From: Subdoligranulum variabile
Lineage (GTDB): Bacteria; Bacillota; Clostridia; Oscillospirales; Ruminococcaceae
Length of the DNA stretch: 64,000 nucleotides
Assembly: GCF_025152575.1 (NCBI RefSeq)
Contig: NZ_CP102293.1
Location: 2,852,001 to 2,916,000, forward strand
Reading direction: 5' to 3'
Part shown: piece after piece, positions 6,585 through 50,681 of the stretch
How the letters are laid out: every line of letters begins with the position of its first letter
Position numbering within the stretch: position 1 is the first letter of the stretch
Position numbers and translations under genes: made by a program
Notes under the pieces: model-generated
Database searches by the model: none
What the model saw: only the letters and a program-made list of their open reading frames with translations
Told to the model about the DNA's origin: nothing

Positions 6585-7403
6585 ATGGCAATGGAACAGG
6601 AGAAAAGGCCGGCGCCCGGCGCAGAGATCGCGCTGGAGGGGGCAGTGAATTTCCGGGAATTGGGCGGCTATGCAGCGGCGGACGGCCGGACGGTGCGATG
6701 GGGGATGTTGTATCGCGGTGGAAATCTGGACGCTTTGCAGAGCCCGGCGGATCAGGCCGTTCTGCAGAGTTGGCATCTGCGGGATATTCTTGATTTGCGC
6801 AGTGCCGGGGAGGCCGACAAGCATCCCAATCCCGCAGTGCCTGAAACCGCTTATCACCGCGTTTGCGCTATGCGGATGAACGACGGTACCGAGATGGACT
6901 TCTCCTCCACAGGGATTGAACGGCTGGCTGCCGAAAAGGCTGCGTTTGAGAAGGCGGCGGGGCATCCGGTCCATGACTTTGATTGGTTCAGTGTGCTGTA
7001 CCGGCAGATGCCTTTCGGCAATCCGGCCTATCACACGCTGTTCCGGCTTCTGGAAGAACACCGCGGTCCGTTGTTGTTCCACTGTACCTGCGGAAAGGAC
7101 CGGACGGGTATTGCCGCCATGCTGATTCTGCTGGCACTGGGAGTCCCCCGGGAGACAGCGTTGGCGGATTATATGTTGACCAATGTCTATCGCCGCCAGA
7201 TCATTGAGGCGTCCCTGCGGGGAAAATCTCCTGAGGAGCGGCGGCTGCTCTTGTCGGTGGAGGGGGTCAGCGAGGAGATGGGCGCTGGTGCCATTGACGA
7301 AATTCTGGTGCGCCATGCCAGTTATGAGGACTATTTCCGGCAGGAGTACGGCCTCGATGCGCAACGGCTGAACGCACTGCGGGATTTTTACCTCACAACA
7401 TAA
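6585..7403 (+). CDS. Tyrosine-protein phosphatase-like protein (dual-specificity fold)
   Basis: A 272-residue cytoplasmic protein with the cysteine-phosphatase loop HCTCGKDRTG (HCxxGxxR), where the first Cys is the nucleophile and the Arg binds phosphate. The N-terminal NFRELGGYAAADGRTVRWGMLYRGGNL and LRDILDLRSAGEA segments are characteristic of the bacterial Y_phosphatase3 family, whose members act on phosphotyrosine or phosphoinositides. The start at 6585 follows GGGAGGAG at a four-base gap; a second in-frame ATG lies six bases later and cannot be excluded. It has its own promoter and ends at a shared terminator, so it is probably monocistronic. The substrate is unknown. Confidence 0.85.
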   Translation: MAMEQEKRPAPGAEIALEGAVNFRELGGYAAADGRTVRWGMLYRGGNLDALQSPADQAVLQSWHLRDILDLRSAGEADKHPNPAVPETAYHRVCAMRMNDGTEMDFSSTGIERLAAEKAAFEKAAGHPVHDFDWFSVLYRQMPFGNPAYHTLFRLLEEHRGPLLFHCTCGKDRTGIAAMLILLALGVPRETALADYMLTNVYRRQIIEASLRGKSPEERRLLLSVEGVSEEMGAGAIDEILVRHASYEDYFRQEYGLDAQRLNALRDFYLTT

Positions 7404-7433
7404 AAAGCGCTGCCCCCTCGGGGCAGCGCTTTT
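7403..7433. terminator. Bidirectional terminator between the phosphatase gene and pfkA
   Basis: A 14-base perfect stem (AAAAGCGCTGCCCC with its complement) closes a three-base loop, with A-run and T-run ends. It serves both converging genes. Confidence 0.93.
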
Positions 7434-7456
7434 GCTTTCAGAGAATGGCGAACCGA

Positions 7457-8533
7457 TCAGCCGAGACTGATGCCCATGGCACGAGCAACATGAACCATAT
7501 CGCAGTCCCCGGGAACGCCACGGGTCTTGCCGGCAATATCAGCAAGGGGATTGGCGGTTACATGACGGTTGACCATCGCCACGGTCACGCCGTAATGCTC
7601 ATCCGCCACCAGGCTGGCGGCATAGGAACCGAACTGGGTAGCCAGCACGCGGTCGTAGGCACTGGGGCTGCCGCCGCGCTGCATATGACCCGGCACGCAG
7701 ATACGCGTCTCGGCGCCGGTCATCTCCTCGATCTGGTGTGCGATGCGGGCAGTGGCGGTGGTGTACCCGGCCTGGGCACGCTGGGCAGTCCACTCCTTGC
7801 GTTTCAGTTTGGCTTCCTCCACCGAGAAGGCCCCCTCGGCCACCGCCAGGATAGAGAAGTTCTTGCCGGCCTTGGCTCGGTTCTCCACGGCGGCGGCGAC
7901 CTTCTTGATGTCATAAGGCATTTCGGGGATCAGGATAATGTCGGCACCGCCGGCAATGCCGGAATACAGCGTCAGCCAACCGGCTTTGTTGCCCATGATT
8001 TCGATACACATTACGCGGCTGTGGCTGCCGGCGGTGGTGTGGATGCGGTCGATGACTTCAGTGGCGATATCCACAGCCGTGTGGAAACCGAAAGTCACAT
8101 CGGTGCCGTAGATGTCGTTGTCAATGGTCTTGGGCAGACCGATGATGTTGAGCCCCTCTTGACTCAGCAGATTGGCGGTTTTATGGGTACCGTTGCCGCC
8201 CAGACAGAGCAGGCAGTCCAGTTTGGCGGCGCGATAATTCTTTTTCATGGCCGCGACCTTGTCCACCTTGTCGTCCTCGACCACGCGCATCTTTTTGAAG
8301 GGAGTGCGCTTGGTGCCCAGAATGGTGCCGCCCACGGTCAGGATGCCGGAAAACTCATCCGGGCTCATCTCGCGATAGTTGCCGTTGATCAGGCCGTCGT
8401 AGCCGTTCAGGATGCCTACGATTTCGACCTTGTCGCCCATGCGGTTGTACAGCGCCTTAGCCACGCCGCGGATGGTGGCGTTCAGACCGGGGCAGTCGCC
8501 GCCGGAAGTCAGGATACCAACACGAATTGCCAT
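7457..8533 (-). CDS. pfkA: 6-phosphofructokinase (PfkA, group III type)
   Basis: Committing step of glycolysis: fructose 6-phosphate to fructose 1,6-bisphosphate. The 358 residues carry GILTSGGDCPGLNATIRG at the N-terminus, GGNGT in the phosphoryl-donor loop, PKTIDNDIYGTD in the catalytic loop, and MGNKAGWLTLYSG. The donor loop has Gly where pyrophosphate-dependent enzymes have Asp, while the catalytic loop has the Lys of the PPi/mixed group. This Gly/Lys combination is known from ATP-dependent group III enzymes of actinobacteria, so ATP is the likelier donor. The start at 8533 follows GGGAGGTAATCAT; the open frame upstream of it is not protein-like. It is transcribed alone. Confidence 0.95.
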   Translation of the reverse strand: MAIRVGILTSGGDCPGLNATIRGVAKALYNRMGDKVEIVGILNGYDGLINGNYREMSPDEFSGILTVGGTILGTKRTPFKKMRVVEDDKVDKVAAMKKNYRAAKLDCLLCLGGNGTHKTANLLSQEGLNIIGLPKTIDNDIYGTDVTFGFHTAVDIATEVIDRIHTTAGSHSRVMCIEIMGNKAGWLTLYSGIAGGADIILIPEMPYDIKKVAAAVENRAKAGKNFSILAVAEGAFSVEEAKLKRKEWTAQRAQAGYTTATARIAHQIEEMTGAETRICVPGHMQRGGSPSAYDRVLATQFGSYAASLVADEHYGVTVAMVNRHVTANPLADIAGKTRGVPGDCDMVHVARAMGISLG

Positions 8534-18710: not shown

Positions 18711-19409
18711 TCACAATCCGGCATAGGCATAAGGCGCCATGGAGGTGACGCTCATGCTGAAGTACCCGCGGTCTATGTTGGCTACCAGATACAGCTGGGC
18801 GTCGGCACTGTAATAGGGAGCAGGGGCTCCATAGCCCAACGGCTCGGCGTCCTCCCAGTCAGTAAAGCTGTCCAGCCCCAGCATGGTGCAGTAAGCCGCG
18901 GCAACATCGGCAGGAACAAACCCATCCTGCAGGCCAAGATCTCCGTTCACCGCTGTCAGCGTTCCGTATTGGCTGACGGTCAGGGTGAGGTTGCGGCTGT
19001 TCTCGTCACTGAAATAGTAGGAAATTTGGTTGCTTTCCAGATCACTCGACAGGCACTGTGTGGCCTGGGTGACCAATTCGTCAGCTGCATTCAAAAAGGA
19101 TTCGGGCAGCACACCGGCGGTGCGTAAAGCAGCCAGATAAGGTTGTACCTCTTGCCGTGCTGTGACGGATTCGGTGGGCTGCACATAGGGGAGAGCCTCC
19201 GTCGGCTGTTGCCGCCAAAAGTACAATTCCCGCGCTACGGCGTTTTCCCGCCCGGCAGCACTCAGAAAGTCGCTGGCCGGGTCGGCACGCCAACAGGAAG
19301 CATCCAGCTGGCGGTCTCGCGCGGCAAACCACAAGAAGGGAAGCGCTGTACACAAAATTACCAGCAGGACAGTACCCAGCAGGGGAACCCATCGTTCACG
19401 CAGTTTCAT
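18711..19409 (-). CDS. Membrane-anchored protein of unknown function in a two-component operon
   Basis: A 232-residue protein with one N-terminal membrane segment (about residues 8-28, VPLLGTVLLVILCTALPFLW) and an extracytoplasmic remainder; no recognised domain. The segment GLQDGFVPADVAAAYCTMLGLD and a C-terminal strand-rich part give no family call. The start at 19409 overlaps the end of the histidine kinase gene by 14 bases, indicating coupled translation and a role linked to that kinase, such as a signal-binding partner. It is followed after 28 bases by the frameshifted lipoprotein gene. Confidence 0.75.
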   Translation of the reverse strand: MKLRERWVPLLGTVLLVILCTALPFLWFAARDRQLDASCWRADPASDFLSAAGRENAVARELYFWRQQPTEALPYVQPTESVTARQEVQPYLAALRTAGVLPESFLNAADELVTQATQCLSSDLESNQISYYFSDENSRNLTLTVSQYGTLTAVNGDLGLQDGFVPADVAAAYCTMLGLDSFTDWEDAEPLGYGAPAPYYSADAQLYLVANIDRGYFSMSVTSMAPYAYAGL

Positions 19410-20811
19410 TCTTAGCCTCCTTCGCTTTGTGCAATGTGAAAGTCGCCGCGGTCCCGGTTCCCGGGACACTCTCAAAGGAGAGGCGGGTGTCGTGCAGAAG
19501 GGCGATGCGTTCGCATAAAGCCAGCCCCATACCACTGCCTCCCTGCTGCCGTGCACGGGATTTGTCCACCATATAAAAAGGTTCGGTGATGCGGGGGAGA
19601 TCTTCGGCGGGAATGCCGCAGCCGGTGTCCCGCAAGGTGAGGGTGACGGCTTCGTTCTGCTCGGAAACTTCCAACGTGATTTTTCCGTCGGGCGGGGTGG
19701 CATGGCGGGCGTTCTGTACCAGGTTGTACAGCAGGTCGCACAGCAGTTCCGGCTGCGCCAGTACGGTGAGCTTGCAGGCAGGCAGTTCCAGCGGCGGTTT
19801 TCCGGCGGGGAGTGCCCGGGTCAGCTGGCGGAATACGGTGTCCAGTCGGACGGGTTCCAGGGCAGGCGGCTCGCTGTCATTGAGCCGCATCAGCTCCATC
19901 AGGCGACCGCTCAGTGCTTCCAGCCGCTTGCTCTCATGGTAGATGAAATCGGCGGCCTTTTGCCGCGTGGCGGGTGGCACCTCGGTGCCGCGCAGCAGAT
20001 CGGCATAGCCCAGCATGCTGGTCATGGGGGTCTTCAGTTCGTGGGTAAAGGCGGCAATGAAATCTTCCCGTTCCTGCAGATGGGTCTGCAGGGCGTTGAC
20101 TTTGTCTTCCACGGCGGCGGCCATCTCGTCAAAGCTGCGGCTCAGCCCGGCAATTTCATCGGATCCGGGCAGGGTGGTACGCCGGTCGTAGGCGCCGGCG
20201 GCGATCTCCCGGCTGGCGGTATTCAGCTGCTCCAGGGGGCGGACCATTCGGCGGCAGAGCAGCAAGGCCAGTACAGCGGCGATCGCCAGAGCCAGCGTCT
20301 GCCCCAATACGGCATCCCGCAGCCGCAGTGCCCGGTCGGCAAACAGGCTGCCAAGACTCTGGGCGCTCACAAAGGTCAGGCATTGCTCCGGGCAGACGAT
20401 AAGACCGCTGCTGATCAGGTAGCGTGTGCCGTCTGTCCCGGTGGCTACATGGCTTTCCAGCGCTTCGCTGCCCGGAACATTCTGGGTCAACTCGCTCTGG
20501 GCCAGTGTGGCGGGCATGGTGGACGCCAGCGACCGGCCGCTTTCGTCGTAGACGGCCAGCAGCCCGCTGCTGCCCTGCCGGGCCAGGCCGCCCAGGTAAC
20601 TCCAGGCCCGGACGCTCAGCGGCGTTTGGGCATCGGTGCGCAGCCCGCTTTGGAAGGCCATCGATTCCCGCTGCCATTCCTCCTGTGCGGTCTGCCGGAT
20701 GTCCTCCAGGGCGCGGTCAAACTGGCGTTCCTGCGTCCAGACGGTGCTCAGGCTCAGCACGATGGCCAGCACACCCAACAGTGCCAGCGTCAGTTTGTGG
20801 CCGAATTTCAT
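19396..20811 (-). CDS. Sensor histidine kinase
   Basis: A 471-residue membrane kinase: TM1 at about residues 7-24, an extracytoplasmic sensor of about 140 residues, TM2 at about 170-186, a HAMP domain, then the H-box FTHELKTPMTSMLGYADLL with phospho-accepting His 257. The catalytic domain has N-box LLYNLVQNARHA, G1 DTGCGIP, F-box EPFYMV and G2 GGSGMGLALC. The sensor contains a Cys pair in VCPEQC. The start at 20811 overlaps the stop of the response regulator (ATGA) and has AAGGAGGAAA upstream. Its partner is the adjacent regulator; the signal is unknown but the downstream lipoproteins suggest an envelope or extracellular cue. Confidence 0.95.
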   Translation of the reverse strand: MKFGHKLTLALLGVLAIVLSLSTVWTQERQFDRALEDIRQTAQEEWQRESMAFQSGLRTDAQTPLSVRAWSYLGGLARQGSSGLLAVYDESGRSLASTMPATLAQSELTQNVPGSEALESHVATGTDGTRYLISSGLIVCPEQCLTFVSAQSLGSLFADRALRLRDAVLGQTLALAIAAVLALLLCRRMVRPLEQLNTASREIAAGAYDRRTTLPGSDEIAGLSRSFDEMAAAVEDKVNALQTHLQEREDFIAAFTHELKTPMTSMLGYADLLRGTEVPPATRQKAADFIYHESKRLEALSGRLMELMRLNDSEPPALEPVRLDTVFRQLTRALPAGKPPLELPACKLTVLAQPELLCDLLYNLVQNARHATPPDGKITLEVSEQNEAVTLTLRDTGCGIPAEDLPRITEPFYMVDKSRARQQGGSGMGLALCERIALLHDTRLSFESVPGTGTAATFTLHKAKEAKNETA

Positions 20812-21476
20812 GGCGTATTTTCCTCCTTTTCCAGGCGATAGCCCACACGGAACACCGTGCAGATCTCGCTTTTCCAGCCCAGCTTTTTGCGCAGCCGGGT
20901 GATGCAAAGATCCAGGGGACGGGTGTCAAAAGTGTCGTCGTCGCCCCACAGCCGTTCATAAAGAACTTCCCGGTAGAGTGTCATGCCGCGGTTGCGCATC
21001 AGCAGTTCCAGCAGCTCGAACTCCCGCGGGGACAGATGAACCGGTCTGCCATTCTGCAGGACGGTGCGGCCTGCGGGATCCAGATCAACGCCGAAGGCGT
21101 GCAGGATCACGTTGGCGCGGCTGGTGCGCCGGAGCACGCTTTCCACCCGGGCCACCAGTTCCAGCGGTTCAAAAGGTTTGGTCAGATAATCGTCGGCACC
21201 TTCGTGCAGACCGCGCACCCGGTCTTTCAGGGAGGTTTTGGCCGTGACAAAAATAACCGGCGTGCCCACACTGCGAAGATACCCAAGCAATTCATAACCG
21301 TCTACCTTGGGCAGCATAATATCCAGAATGGCCAGTTCGTAATCGTGGTCGGCAATCCGATCAGCGGCGGTCTCGCCGTCGTTGACCTGCTCACAGGTGT
21401 ACCCGGCTCCGGTCAAGGTCAGTTCGATCAGGTCGGCGATGGGGCGTTCATCTTCTACGATCAGAATGGGGCGCAT
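20808..21476 (-). CDS. OmpR/PhoB-family response regulator
   Basis: A 222-residue two-domain regulator. The receiver has acidic residues Glu 8 and Asp 9, phospho-acceptor Asp 52 in LAILDIMLP, Thr 78 and Lys 100 in LTKPFEP. The C-terminal winged helix has the recognition region LCITRLRKKLGW and the wing RVGYRLE. It is the first gene of the operon, with a promoter 34 bases upstream of the start; GGAGGAATT precedes the start at 21476. It presumably regulates its own operon, including the membrane protein and lipoproteins. Confidence 0.95.
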   Translation of the reverse strand: MRPILIVEDERPIADLIELTLTGAGYTCEQVNDGETAADRIADHDYELAILDIMLPKVDGYELLGYLRSVGTPVIFVTAKTSLKDRVRGLHEGADDYLTKPFEPLELVARVESVLRRTSRANVILHAFGVDLDPAGRTVLQNGRPVHLSPREFELLELLMRNRGMTLYREVLYERLWGDDDTFDTRPLDLCITRLRKKLGWKSEICTVFRVGYRLEKEENTP

Positions 21477-46275: not shown

Positions 46276-48162
46276 TCAGCCTTGCTCAGAAGAAGCCGGG
46301 ACACTTTCCGCTTGTATTTCAGGCTCTGGCTCGGCGGGCGGCTCGGGGGCAGGAGCGCCTCCATCGCCGCCTTCGCCTCCGGAGGAGCTGCTTTCGGAGG
46401 AACCTGCAGAACTGTTGTCGGTGGAACTGCTGCTCTCGGAAGGTGCTGTCTCTGTAGAACTGCTGCTTTCCGTTGAACTACTGGAACCGTCTCCGCTGGG
46501 GGGCGGGGTCCCGGGATCGGTAGACGTTGCAGGTGGAGCAGTGGCCGCTGGCGCTTCCTGCAGCAGCACTCCGCATCGGCCGCAGACCACACTGCTGTCA
46601 CCCTGTGTCACGGGCTGGTGCCCCAGAGCACTCTGGCCGTAGGTGGTGGTCTGCGCACCGCAGCTGCATTTCAATTGGATGACCTCGGCGCTGGTGCAGG
46701 TTGCAGGCGTGTCGCTCACCACAATGTTGTAATTGTGGGTGTGCGCAATGGTTTCACTCTTGGTCTGGCCGCAGCGACGGCAGGTGTATACCATCTGATC
46801 CCCCTGCTGGCTGCCACCATCCCAATCGTGGCCCAGTGCAGGAATATCCTTCTCAATGATCTCCCCGCAGATGCTGCACTTGTATTTGGCACTGCCCGCA
46901 TTCAGGCAGGTGGGAGCCACGGCGGTGCCGCTTACCTCCACATATTGATGCTCATGGGCATCCGCCTGAAAATGAGCCGTCAGGACCACACCGCCGGCGT
47001 TGGCGTCAGAGGGCATGGTGAACTGAATGGTAGCGCTGCTGTAGCTGCCGCCGGTGCTGGAAGTCCATCCGGCAAAAACGAAGCCTTCTTTCGCAACCGC
47101 AGTGACGGCGCTGGCGGTGCCGCCCTTCTTGACAAGCTGGCTGGTGGACCCGGACAGGGTACCGCCATTGGTGGCCACGAATTCCAGGGGAACTTTGGCG
47201 CCGCGCACGGCAATGGGGTCTTCGGAGATCAGGTTGGCCGGGACGCCGTCGGGGGTGGGAATGGTGCCCAGCGGCTGGGGACGGCGGTCTTCGGTCACAT
47301 AGGCGTGAGTCCGCACATAATTGAAGTAGGCGGTTACAGCAGCCTTGGACAGATGCACCCCATCCGAAAGGGTGTAATCCGTCTTGGCCCAGCCGGTGGT
47401 GCTGTCCCGCAGCACTTCGGAACTGTTCAGAAACTTGAAGCCGTTTTCCTCACACATGGTCACCAGGGCGGCGTTGTAGGCGTCCACCTGGGTCATGGTG
47501 AGATTGGTGTTTTCCCGCTGTTTGTCCAGCGGCGGGATTGCACTGACAATGATGTCGCAGTATGGCCAGGCCGTCTGGATGGCCTGCAGGCCTTTTAAGT
47601 AGGTGGAGATGAAATTGGTGGCGTCTGTGGAGGAACCGCTGAGATTGTTGGTACCATAGCAGATGATGATGCGTTTGGGCTTGAGCATGGCCACCGCCTC
47701 TGGTACGGTGTACATGGTGGAGGAGCCTTTGAATTTCTCACACTTGAGGGTGGTGATGGCACCGGCTCCCATGCTCACCACACCGATGTTGTTGTTCAGC
47801 GATGTGAATGCTTGTCCGGTCTCGTCGGCATACATCAGGTACCGGGCGGTGTTGGAATCGCCGATGAACAGTGTTTCGTCCACATAGCTGCGCCCGGCGT
47901 CCTCTGTCTGCGGCAGAACGGTGCCCACCGCGGCGGTTTCCACGGCCAGGTCGGCGGCGTGAGGAATTTCCGCCGTCTCGGCAGAGGCGGTCTCGGCCGT
48001 TTCGGCGGTAGCCTGATCGAAATTTCCTTCCGGCGCGGGCTTGCCGTTCAGGGCGATGATCAGAAGACAGCAAAACACCACGATGGCCCCGGCGCAGCCG
48101 GCAGCCGTCAGGAGCAGTTTGCGGTTCCAGCTTTCCCAGGGGGCGAAGGACGGCAATTTCAT
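46276..48162 (-). CDS. Membrane-anchored SGNH-hydrolase surface protein with repeat and Cys-rich modules
   Basis: A 628-residue extracytoplasmic protein. An N-terminal anchor (about residues 15-38) and a Thr/Ala/Glu linker precede an SGNH/GDSL hydrolase domain: TLFIGDSNTARYLMY (nucleophile Ser 103), CYGTNNLSG and DGVHLSKAA, with the catalytic Asp/His. This is followed by an InlB-type repeat (GFVFAGWTSSTGG), then two Cys-rich repeats of the kind CLNAGSAKYKCSICGEIIEKD and TCTSAEVIQLKCSC plus CGRCG, and a Ser/Glu/Pro-rich tail of about 90 residues with no LPXTG motif. The likely role is de-acylation or esterase action on cell-wall or host glycans; the modular tail suggests adhesion or wall retention. 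The start at 48162 follows GAGGAG. Confidence 0.87.
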   Translation of the reverse strand: MKLPSFAPWESWNRKLLLTAAGCAGAIVVFCCLLIIALNGKPAPEGNFDQATAETAETASAETAEIPHAADLAVETAAVGTVLPQTEDAGRSYVDETLFIGDSNTARYLMYADETGQAFTSLNNNIGVVSMGAGAITTLKCEKFKGSSTMYTVPEAVAMLKPKRIIICYGTNNLSGSSTDATNFISTYLKGLQAIQTAWPYCDIIVSAIPPLDKQRENTNLTMTQVDAYNAALVTMCEENGFKFLNSSEVLRDSTTGWAKTDYTLSDGVHLSKAAVTAYFNYVRTHAYVTEDRRPQPLGTIPTPDGVPANLISEDPIAVRGAKVPLEFVATNGGTLSGSTSQLVKKGGTASAVTAVAKEGFVFAGWTSSTGGSYSSATIQFTMPSDANAGGVVLTAHFQADAHEHQYVEVSGTAVAPTCLNAGSAKYKCSICGEIIEKDIPALGHDWDGGSQQGDQMVYTCRRCGQTKSETIAHTHNYNIVVSDTPATCTSAEVIQLKCSCGAQTTTYGQSALGHQPVTQGDSSVVCGRCGVLLQEAPAATAPPATSTDPGTPPPSGDGSSSSTESSSSTETAPSESSSSTDNSSAGSSESSSSGGEGGDGGAPAPEPPAEPEPEIQAESVPASSEQG

Positions 48163-48196
48163 CCAGAAACACTCCTCATAAAACCGATTTGCTCTA

Positions 48197-48225
48197 ATCA
48201 TACACCATTTGCGCGGCGGGCGCAA
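48197..48225 (-). promoter_or_regulatory. Promoter of the SGNH-hydrolase gene
   Basis: Leftward TTGCGC (48220-48225) and TATGAT (48197-48202) with a 17-base spacer. Confidence 0.6.
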
Positions 48226-48307
48226 ACCATTCCGACAGAAAAAAGGCGTCCGGGTCGATCTTTTTACAACTTCGGATTTGTTCATCCCATTTTTTTGGCA
48301 GCACCCC

Positions 48308-48336
48308 TTGACAATTTTCCGGGAATGCGGTAGACT
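48308..48336 (+). promoter_or_regulatory. Promoter of tRNA-Ala
   Basis: Perfect TTGACA (48308-48313), 17-base spacer, TAGACT (48331-48336), 19 bases before the tRNA. Confidence 0.75.
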
Positions 48337-48355
48337 ATTCAAGTCGGAAAAATTT

Positions 48356-48431
48356 GGGCCTGTAGCTCAGTTGGGAGAGCGTTCGGTTCGCATCCGAGAG
48401 GTCAAGGGTTCGAATCCCTCCAGGTCCACCA
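48356..48431 (+). tRNA. tRNA-Ala (anticodon CGC)
   Basis: A 76-base cloverleaf: acceptor GGGCCTG with CAGGTCC, D arm TAGCTCAGTTGGGAGAGC, anticodon stem TTCGG/CCGAG closing TTCGCAT, T arm AAGGG-TTCGAAT-CCCTC. CCA is encoded. It reads GCG codons. Confidence 0.93.
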
Positions 48432-48468: not shown

Positions 48469-48598
48469 GTTGCCCGATGGGAGATGGTTTTCACCAAATT
48501 TTCTCATAAAACGTTCCCATTTTGCACTTTTTGTGCTATACTGAATCAAAACACACTTTTTTTGCGCTTCGCGTAGGAAAACGTAGGTTCGGTGTGGA

Positions 48599-48627
48599 TT
48601 GAATCCTTTCCCTGTTTGCCCTATAGT
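48599..48627 (+). promoter_or_regulatory. Promoter of the Spo0A-like operon
   Basis: TTGAAT (48599-48604), 17-base spacer, TATAGT (48622-48627). The leader then carries an AAAGGAGG (48636-48643) with no start codon at proper distance, 60 bases before the first gene. A weaker alternative is TTCCCA/TATACT at 48514-48542. Confidence 0.65.
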
Positions 48628-48705: not shown

Positions 48706-48987
48706 ATGGAACAAGCCGGACAGGAATATCTGGCCGTTTACCGGCGGGATTTTTCGGAGCTGGAGGGGCTGCAAAAGGCGGAACAGGTGACCTATGCGCT
48801 GCAGCGTGCCGGTCATGCGCTGTGTTTTCATGCCAAGCGCAGAACGTCCGCAGAAGATGTTTCCTGCAGTTTGTGCGGATTGGATGAGGCATTTGCCGGT
48901 CGGCTGCTGTGTTACATGTACGAGAATGCGGTGGCACCGGAACAACTCCCCGACGTTTTGCGGGACCTGTGCGGAACGGCGGTGTAA
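48706..48987 (+). CDS. Small protein of unknown function, first gene of the Spo0A-like operon
   Basis: A 93-residue acidic, mostly helical, soluble protein with high third-position GC, as in its neighbours, so it is probably real. It holds a CSLCG pair and several aromatic residues but no motif I recognise. The start at 48706 follows GGAGAGGA at ten bases. The frame stays open upstream to 48592, but that part overlaps the promoter. It overlaps an ATG of the next gene by one base (TAATG), so the products are likely made together. It could be a partner or modulator of the Spo0A-like regulator. Confidence 0.6.
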   Translation: MEQAGQEYLAVYRRDFSELEGLQKAEQVTYALQRAGHALCFHAKRRTSAEDVSCSLCGLDEAFAGRLLCYMYENAVAPEQLPDVLRDLCGTAV

Positions 48988-49046
48988 TGGCCATGCAAGG
49001 GACGTTGGAAAGGGGCCGGAGCGCTCCGGAAAGAGGAACAGCCGCG

Positions 49047-49802
49047 ATGCAGCCGCTGGTACAAAAGAAGACGGTGATAGCAGCCTTTGTGGCCGAGGCC
49101 CGTATGGAGCGGGACTGCATCCGCCTCTATGCACAGACCCACCCTGAAGTTTGTGCGGCGGCGGTACTGTCCGGTGGGCGGGAGCTGTTGCAGCAGCTGC
49201 GCTGCGGTCTTACACCGCAGGTCCTGGTGCTGGATGTACTGTTGGCGGATATGGGAATCCTTTCTTTGATGGAGGCCATCCACGAGCTGCATTTGGAGCC
49301 GGAGCCGGTTATTCTGCTCACGGTCCCGGTGCCGGAACAGACGGCTGCGCGCCGGGCTATGCAGATTTTTGAGGACTGCCAGATCCTTCTCAAACCATAC
49401 CGCCTCAAGGATTTGTTTGACCAGGTTTATCTGCTGGGAGCAGGTGCGGACCAGTATCGTTTGTACCGGGCACGGGGATTCTGCAGACGCTGCCTGCAGC
49501 AGATGCATGGTGATCCGGCCATGAGTGGCTGTGACTATCTGGAGCAGATGCTGCTGTACGCATATACGGCAGACCGGCCCTGTTCTGCGGCCGCGCTTTA
49601 TCAGATGGTAGCGCAGGACAACAACACGCAGGAGGCCAGCGTTGCGGCGGCAGTCATGCGGTTGTCGCGCAAGATGTGGCAGCAGGGAACACCGCTGTAC
49701 CGGCAGCTGTGTCTGCGGTGCGGACTGCCGGAAGATGCAGTGCTGCCCAATGGCAAGTTGCTCAAAGGAATGCTGGAACTGCTGAAGCAGGAGATCATAT
49801 AA
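49047..49802 (+). CDS. Divergent Spo0A-like response regulator
   Basis: A 251-residue two-domain protein, close to Spo0A in length. The receiver has phospho-acceptor Asp 63 (QVLVLDVLLADMG), Thr 92 and Lys 116 (ILLKPYRLKDLFDQV), but the N-terminal acidic pair that holds magnesium is replaced by AAFVAEA. The C-terminal domain (about 147-248) is collinear with the Spo0A DNA-binding domain: GCDYLEQMLLYAYTADR, then NNTQEASVAAAVMRLSRKMW in the recognition-helix position and LPNGKLLKGMLELL at the end. The usual SRVERAIRHAI residues are not kept, so DNA specificity must differ. Start 49047 (AGAGGA upstream) is preferred; 48987 is an alternative. Confidence 0.72.
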   Translation: MQPLVQKKTVIAAFVAEARMERDCIRLYAQTHPEVCAAAVLSGGRELLQQLRCGLTPQVLVLDVLLADMGILSLMEAIHELHLEPEPVILLTVPVPEQTAARRAMQIFEDCQILLKPYRLKDLFDQVYLLGAGADQYRLYRARGFCRRCLQQMHGDPAMSGCDYLEQMLLYAYTADRPCSAAALYQMVAQDNNTQEASVAAAVMRLSRKMWQQGTPLYRQLCLRCGLPEDAVLPNGKLLKGMLELLKQEII

Positions 49803-49836
49803 AGCCAACCGGGCCCGGAAAGGGGAGGAACACGGC

Positions 49837-50640
49837 ATGCAGGCAAACGAAAAGGAACTGGCGATGGCGCTGCGCGGCGGACTGCGCGGACGCTTCCGCC
49901 AGTCGTTCCATCTGCTGGAGAATGCCTTTGAAGTGTTGGACGACCAGATGGCCCATTGTGTGACGCCGTCCGAATATGAAACGCTCCGCCCGCTTTTGCG
50001 GCAGATCACCGAACAGCTTTTGACCCTGCAGCGTCTGGGAAACCACGCGGCGGATGCGGCCGTTGCGCCGGTTCTGCATCAGGTCTGTGCGCCGCGCCCC
50101 ATGGAATTGCTGGGACAGTTGCGGGAACTGGCAGCTTTCTGCAATGAGATTTTGCTGCAGGAAACGGTGGATGCTTCGGTCTCGGTGGAAGCACCGGATT
50201 CGATGCCGGTTTTGCTGACCATGGGAGACGATACCCTTCTCAACGGGTTGCTGGCCAATCTGGTTTCCAACTCTCTGGCGGCAGGCCGACCTGTGAAGAT
50301 CACGCTGTCCTGTGAGCCGGGACTGTTTTACTATCGGGACAACGGGCCGGGCCTGCCGGAAGACGCAGCGGGGCTGCTGGAAGGCGGCGTTTGGAGCGAG
50401 CATCTGCTGGAGCAGGGCGGATTGGGACTTCCGCTGATTCGCGCCTATGCAGCGGCGATGGGCTGGACTCTCGCGGTGGAACGGGGGCAGGGGACCTGCC
50501 TTCGGTTCACATTGCCGTCCTGTGCGGTGGATTTGGGGAGTATGATGCTGGAATCGGCAGCGGCTGCGCCCGCACAGCGGGAACGGCGCCGCCGCGCGCT
50601 TCAGCTGGAACTCTATCCGCTTCTGCAGCCTCCTCAATAG
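49837..50640 (+). CDS. Soluble HATPase-domain protein (histidine kinase-like)
   Basis: A 267-residue cytoplasmic protein without membrane segments. A helical N-terminal region (about 15-110) could form a dimerisation bundle; it has His 25 in RQSFHLLENAF and His 40, but no standard H-box with Glu/Pro. The ATP-binding domain has N-box LLANLVSNSLAAG (138-150), G1 RDNGPGLP (168-174) and G2 GGLGLPLIRA (194-203). It might phosphorylate or dephosphorylate the adjacent Spo0A-like regulator, or act like Spo0B as a phosphotransfer protein. It begins 34 bases after that gene behind GGGGAGGAA and is closed by a terminator. Confidence 0.78.
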   Translation: MQANEKELAMALRGGLRGRFRQSFHLLENAFEVLDDQMAHCVTPSEYETLRPLLRQITEQLLTLQRLGNHAADAAVAPVLHQVCAPRPMELLGQLRELAAFCNEILLQETVDASVSVEAPDSMPVLLTMGDDTLLNGLLANLVSNSLAAGRPVKITLSCEPGLFYYRDNGPGLPEDAAGLLEGGVWSEHLLEQGGLGLPLIRAYAAAMGWTLAVERGQGTCLRFTLPSCAVDLGSMMLESAAAAPAQRERRRRALQLELYPLLQPPQ

Positions 50641-50647
50641 TTTTTAT

Positions 50648-50681
50648 GGGCATCACCCGCGGGGGTGGTGCTCTTTTTTTT
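50648..50681 (+). terminator. Terminator of the Spo0A-like operon
   Basis: GGGCATCACCC pairs with GGGTGGTGCTC (two G-U pairs) around a short loop, followed by eight T. Confidence 0.9.

Follow-up and report, generated by a model that had tools for sequence, protein, structure and literature searches.

A three-gene unit on the chromosome of Subdoligranulum variabile combines a small DUF6514-type protein, a Spo0A-like response regulator and a homologue of HisKA-type histidine kinases that carries glycine in place of the phospho-acceptor histidine, and its signalling probably dispenses with the customary transfer of phosphate from histidine to aspartate. As judged from the sequences, the gene order is kept among relatives, the kinase homologue has lost its histidine and kept its ATP-site residues, and the regulator has kept the predicted Spo0A folds and, in Gemmiger, its aspartate. 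The best reading, on which our belief and our doubt are evenly balanced, is a Spo0A-type two-component system that was repeatedly turned into a pseudokinase-regulator unit. A first-pass annotation of the window (the whole stretch of 64,000 nucleotides analysed here) had already pointed to a Spo0A-like unit or a new two-component variant, and the latter proposal is supported by our results. What goes beyond it is the presence of the unit over many genera, the normal histidine kinases in other members and the repeated loss of the histidine.

Layout, regulation and distribution of the unit

The three genes lie on the plus strand between a tRNA-Ala gene (48356–48431) and pyrH (50794). Gene 1 (48706–48984) is an open reading frame for a divergent DUF6514-family protein of 93 residues, and its stop is overlapped by the ATG of gene 2 (48987–49799), which encodes the Spo0A-like response regulator and has an alternative start at 49047. 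Gene 3 (49837–50637) encodes a soluble HisKA-type histidine kinase homologue of 267 residues. Consensus scans placed a sigma-70-like promoter, TTGAAT-17-TATAGT, 5' of gene 1 (48599–48627, plus strand), and a terminator-like hairpin of 11 pairs followed by a T run between gene 3 and pyrH (50648–50673, plus strand). The stretch holds five promoter-like sites against 1.1 expected and seven terminator-like sites against 3.1 expected; the hairpin has the longest stem among the latter, and the TATAGT hexamer is invariant in all 11 aligned upstream regions. As the candidate promoter and the terminator-like hairpin flank genes 1–3, the unit would form an operon of its own, apart from pyrH-frr. It looks like one operon, with both signals being consensus predictions rather than proof of either. 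The unit also adjoins a minus-strand gene (46276–48342) for a secreted SGNH-hydrolase-like protein, so named by eye; this neighbour recurs at L031–L037 and L052 and found no match in the remaining genus stretches.

A conserved upstream element, CGTAnnAAAnCGTA (48572–48585, plus strand), adjoins the promoter in the window clade and is a candidate operator of the operon. It differs from the TGTCGAA box and occurs at exactly one site in its own genome (reversed control, none), and a genome-wide regulon defined by it was therefore rejected. In 15 of the 28 Gemmiger-type loci the element stands 97–212 bases upstream of gene 1, these 15 sites being all of its matches on both strands of the 28 loci (432 kb), and one of two other Gemmiger groups carries it as CGTATAAAATCGTA. 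The single site and its placement upstream of gene 1 suggest local autoregulation in Gemmiger through this candidate operator.

Each of the 25 genomes from the window's genus contained gene 2 and, in this first set, the complete unit with three open genes. A search with gene 2 in the order gave a weak match in one of 16 other genomes, and this match was a canonical Spo0A. The question of whether the three genes stay together in related genomes, raised by the first-pass annotation, was answered by a survey in which the order 1-2-3 was kept in 24 of 24 relatives. pyrH lies downstream in 22 of the 24 fetched stretches (3.4 kb away at L049), and the same holds for 8 of 12 further family units. Scanning named genomes yielded 42 loci, 37 with all three genes, three with genes 1 and 2 and two with gene 1 alone, which were labelled Gemmiger, Subdoligranulum, Faecalibacterium, Fournierella, Ruthenibacterium, Anaerofilum or Avimonas, or were unnamed.

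Of the 396 genomes in the GTDB family, 51 carry gene 1, spread over 16 of 115 genera, and the operon-like unit is complete at 61 of the 72 gene-1 places examined, which bears out the proposed three-gene arrangement. Sixty of these units were recognised by script and one, L150, by hand, its kinase (6693–8498) standing behind a long input part; four weak gene-1 places (G482, G545, G605 and G077) are outside the 72-place count. The 11 places without a complete unit comprise six second places in genomes that have one (L148, L226, L231, L235, L243 and L245), three weak gene-1 matches (L161, L251 and L252), L157, which is in the genome of L158, and L247, which stands alone. Five of the six second places fall in one genus (g75), and L245 is at a contig end in g40. 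Judging by the genomes sampled, the unit is a feature of the GTDB family. Between the window and seven relatives, dN/dS was 0.03–0.16 for gene 1, 0.06–0.18 for gene 2 and 0.15–0.28 for gene 3, compared with 0.01–0.04 for pyrH, which indicates that all three genes are under purifying selection and that gene 3 is the least constrained.

The regulator, the kinase homologue and the DUF6514-type protein

The middle gene had been described as resembling both Spo0A domains, and this description is matched by its predicted structure, which has the fold of both and finds Spo0A chains as the best fold matches for each domain. The profile searches proposed at the same time gave a divided outcome: HATPase_c was matched by gene 3 (E 3.2e-10), while Spo0A_C remained below its cut-off for the window's gene 2 (18.1 against 25 bits). 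The whole-protein equivalog TIGR02875 scored 27.8 bits against a cut-off of 200, and the best Spo0A_C match among gene-2 family members reached E 4.6e-18. By its structure model, gene 2 is a receiver joined to a Spo0A_C effector fold. The putative phospho-acceptor Asp63 (49233–49235, plus strand, numbered from the start at 49047) is invariant in 25 of 25 genus proteins and in 28 of 28 Gemmiger-type loci. In the recognition helix, Arg205 (49659–49661, plus strand) takes the place of the His in SRVERAIRHAI, as Arg does in 51 of 62 unit regulators, including 27 of the 27 Gemmiger regulators counted. The arginine which we take to be R214 in Spo0A numbering is kept in 3 of 62, with Ala or Ser mostly found instead. 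The canonical SRVERAIRHAI helix is thus missing from gene 2, as the earlier reading had it, and the DNA-binding specificity of the regulator is likely changed but conserved.

Gene 2 shares the receiver and the Spo0A_C effector fold with Spo0A (TIGR02875; PF00072 and PF08769). Unlike Spo0A, it falls below every curated cut-off, has a changed recognition helix and an eroded acidic pair, and shares its operon with a kinase homologue instead of following spoIVB. The possibility that it is the genome's own Spo0A was rejected, because the canonical gene stands elsewhere: the one locus over the Spo0A_C cut-off (G000:C1:2921346, E 3.5e-45) is about 20 kb downstream of the unit, behind a gene for the SpoIVB peptidase (Peptidase_S55, E 2.1e-75). 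The first-pass annotation had named the lack of a Spo0A match and the identity of gene 2 with the canonical Spo0A as the outcomes that would overturn it, and neither came about; its view of gene 2 as a Spo0A derivative distinct from the genome's Spo0A stands. The spoIVB-spo0A pair (G000:C1:2919379–2921684; L055 4379–6684) lies just outside the window, and the canonical receiver is also without one of the two acidic residues (D-T). By hand count, about 70 of 148 family genomes have at least two Spo0A_C matches, including some regulators of the three-gene unit, with up to eight in one genome (G043). Second Spo0A_C proteins are hence common in the family and a paralogue alone is not remarkable; unlike these paralogues, the window's gene 2 is too divergent to be among the matches.

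The suggestion of a non-spore-forming lineage found no support, as genes for SpoIVA, SpoIVB and SpoVAD are present in the genome, although a search there for alpha/beta SASP returned no match. SpoIVA was found in 135 of 148 family genomes and in all 16 genomes in which the first family scan (148 genomes) detected gene 1, so that the unit was rejected as a marker of genomes without sporulation genes. That scan missed G125, which has the complete unit and SpoIVA. The phosphorelay is described as absent from many Clostridia, including Ruminococcaceae, in a study of clostridial sporulation kinases (PMC11210211). Among open-licence papers, our searches found nothing relevant on sporulation genes of Gemmiger, Faecalibacterium or Subdoligranulum, and none on Spo0A paralogs or Spo0A-like regulators of Ruminococcaceae or on the Spo0A recognition-helix residues by name.

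HisKA was not matched by the window's gene 3 and was matched by one of its 25 genus members (E 0.13). N141, D168, G194 and G197, which we take to represent the N-box, G1 and G2, are invariant in 25 of 25 genus proteins, and no invariant or nearly invariant His was found among them. Gly18 (49888–49890, plus strand) occupies the phospho-acceptor position, with G-R for H-E. It was placed there by its MAFFT column in an alignment with His-keeping unit kinases and two canonical kinases, and also by profile-profile alignment (E 1.7e-22). The G-R pair is invariant in gene 3, and the glycine is present in 28 of 28 Gemmiger-type loci, which substantiates the earlier remark that the protein lacks a normal H-box. 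Gene 3 accordingly has a HATPase_c domain with the N-box Asn and the G1 Asp, and no phospho-acceptor His of the HisKA type. As a control, other kinases in the fetched stretches kept the His in 4 of 4 cases (L147 6217, L077 1370, window 19399 and L087 185), chosen by eye among 16 listed kinases, the others of which belonged to the unit itself. The one in the window (19399–20925, minus strand) is an ordinary HAMP-HisKA-HATPase kinase with the H-box HELKTP.

The window's gene-1 protein scores 12.7 bits against DUF6514 (PF20124; cut-off 23.9, E 0.15). The same profile is matched by 23 of 66 gene-1 family members at E≤0.1 (best 7.9e-9) and by 11 of 25 genus members at E≤1 (best 7e-5), and a C-terminal motif is common to gene 1 and DUF6514. 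Conserved positions are R14, S17, Q23, Y30, L32, Y72-E73-N74-x-V76 and D87, of which Q23, Y72, E73, N74 and V76 are invariant in 66 of 66. At the named aligned loci outside Gemmiger, identity to the window protein is 26–34% for gene 1 versus 15–26% for gene 2 and 18–23% for gene 3, which makes gene 1 the least diverged. Across the class, DUF6514 is present in 84 of 196 genomes. Unlike gene 1, its best 30 loci there had neither the unit's regulator nor its kinase within 1.5-kb flanks in any case, and a general association of DUF6514 with Spo0A-like regulators was rejected on this ground. Literature on DUF6514 was not found among open-licence papers, and print may hold some. At one locus (L084, CASEBB010000065.1) a gene-1-like end was seen by eye in frame with a DNA-methylase-like stretch; the contig is labelled Succinivibrionaceae and is probably mis-binned or chimeric.

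Loss of the histidine and the aspartate

Sixty-two loci were scored for both phosphotransfer residues, namely the 61 complete units and L158, which has regulator and kinase and whose genome carries gene 1 on another contig. The acceptor column holds His in 12 loci and is replaced in 50 by twelve different residues (G in 33, E in four, Q in three, S in two, and M, Y, A, T, C, D, K and R once each), while the N-box Asn and the G1 Asp are each present in 60 of 62 unit kinases. Nine of the 12 His-bearing kinases were included in the Pfam scan (L236, L238 and L241 were outside); HisKA exceeded its cut-off in five of them, stayed below it in two (L151 and L152) and was unlisted in two (L160 and L250), and PAS was found in two (L150 and L162). 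Judging from these domains, the His-bearing kinases of the unit look ordinary.

A quick tree of both proteins with the scored columns masked requires at least four changes between His and non-His on supported branches. A careful tree, from which six rows were left out (L249, absent from both trees, and L224, L160, L149, L147 and L250), requires three. When this tree was rooted by us on L150/L162, seven losses were counted if His was never regained, though L153 and L156 share their residue and may stand for a single loss. For the receiver Asp, each tree requires two changes. In one genus (L152, L159, L227 and L233) the receivers are intact and the kinase column reads H, Y, C and K, whereas in another (L236, L153 and L156) Ser replaces Asp in all three receivers and one kinase keeps its His. 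Losses have therefore taken place in both orders, His going first beside intact receivers in the former genus and Asp going first with a His still present in the latter. Of the 12 loci with His, 11 have an intact receiver, versus 4 of the 50 without (Fisher p 3e-8, uncorrected for kinship), and a test on independent pairs, His versus Asp, found four pairs only and has no power.

Competing explanations and meaning

We propose that a DUF6514-type protein, a regulator derived from Spo0A and what was once a histidine kinase make up a self-contained operon. The ancestor was probably an ordinary HisKA-HATPase kinase, in some cases with PAS input, and a Spo0A-like partner, from which the phosphotransfer step would have been lost several times while the unit was retained. 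Gene 3 would now be a pseudokinase, predicted from its residues to bind ATP and to contact the regulator through its helical (DHp-like) part. Its nucleotide state, together with gene 1, would set the dimerisation and DNA binding of the regulator with no phosphate handed over, and the regulator, if it binds DNA, may control its own promoter from the lone upstream element and perhaps act at a few other sites. The place of gene 1 in this mechanism is a guess. It speaks against this best reading that 13 of the 28 Gemmiger-type loci and all 33 units outside Gemmiger have no upstream element.

Known kinase homologues of this kind offer partial parallels. Caulobacter DivL, a HisKA-type kinase homologue like gene 3, is reported to have Tyr in place of the His, to bind its regulator while lacking kinase and phosphatase activity, and itself to bind ATP weakly (PMC4211667); the conserved ATP-site residues of gene 3 could therefore equally mean a remaining enzymatic activity. 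DivL differs from gene 3 in carrying Tyr and PAS domains in place of Gly and, in Gemmiger, no input domain, and gene 3 alone has a Spo0A-type regulator in its operon and a His loss that recurs over a clade. RocA of CovRS is presented in PMC7028121 as a pseudokinase working by protein interaction; its partner there is the kinase CovS, and no such partner kinase is known for gene 3. PMC9491836 reports a ChrS variant that arose by frameshift in an evolved strain, and PMC4395418 treats aspartate-less receivers as a known class.

The most serious rival, which we hold to be possible but rather unlikely, is that phosphorylation of Asp63 still switches the regulator, the phosphate coming from another kinase or from acetyl phosphate and gene 3 only removing or protecting it. 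Asp63 is one of only eight invariant positions among the 25 genus regulators, the 28 Gemmiger-type loci keep Lys116 in 25 cases and the first acidic receiver residue in 16, and Asp is retained in 41 of the 50 loci without His. The invariance of Asp63 in the Gemmiger regulators and this retention of Asp count against the best reading, as both would be odd if phosphate had no role. The invariance of Asp63 keeps the rival alive. However, the first acidic residue is lost in 12 of 12 window-clade members and nine of the 50 loci without His are also without Asp, and phosphate therefore cannot be general to the unit.

It is improbable that the unit tunes sporulation through pairing of its regulator, or competition, with the canonical Spo0A. 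All 16 gene-1 genomes of the first family scan keep a Spo0A_C protein over the cut-off beside SpoIVA, none of 13 genomes without SpoIVA has gene 1, and both Spo0A folds are retained in gene 2; but 119 of 135 SpoIVA-bearing genomes are without gene 1 (in the scan that missed G125), so that 16 of 135 versus 0 of 13 makes no clear difference, and neither the recognition-helix residues nor the upstream element correspond to those of Spo0A and its TGTCGAA box. Very improbable, too, is that gene 3 remains an active kinase with its phospho-acceptor shifted to a different residue. The kept ATP site would permit it, and a His does stand one helical turn later in the Faecalibacterium-type loci L225, L230 and L158, yet the regulators of these three have no Asp and the 25 genus proteins share no conserved His. 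Decay of the unit to a functionless remnant, for which fast divergence relative to pyrH and the lost catalytic residues might speak, was rejected as practically negligible in view of dN/dS values of 0.03–0.28 across the three genes and seven relatives, the intact frames of the first set and an order fixed over many genera.

Returning to the pseudokinase-regulator unit, we tentatively surmise, at somewhat less than even confidence, that His-Asp phosphotransfer was discarded several times and in both orders, and that the real signal would be binding between proteins under the control of nucleotide and gene 1, phosphotransfer having been an optional extra of the ancestor. Through such a history the DUF6514 partner above all, but also the operon, its ATP site and the Spo0A-type effector, would have been retained.

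Regulators of the Spo0A type are regarded as phosphate-switched, and here one has an operon of its own across at least eight genus labels of gut bacteria. Since a single operon spans the range from an ordinary histidine kinase to twelve histidine-less kinds, it offers a direct test of a kinase homologue without phosphotransfer, and the uncharacterised DUF6514 family gains a partner in this lineage.
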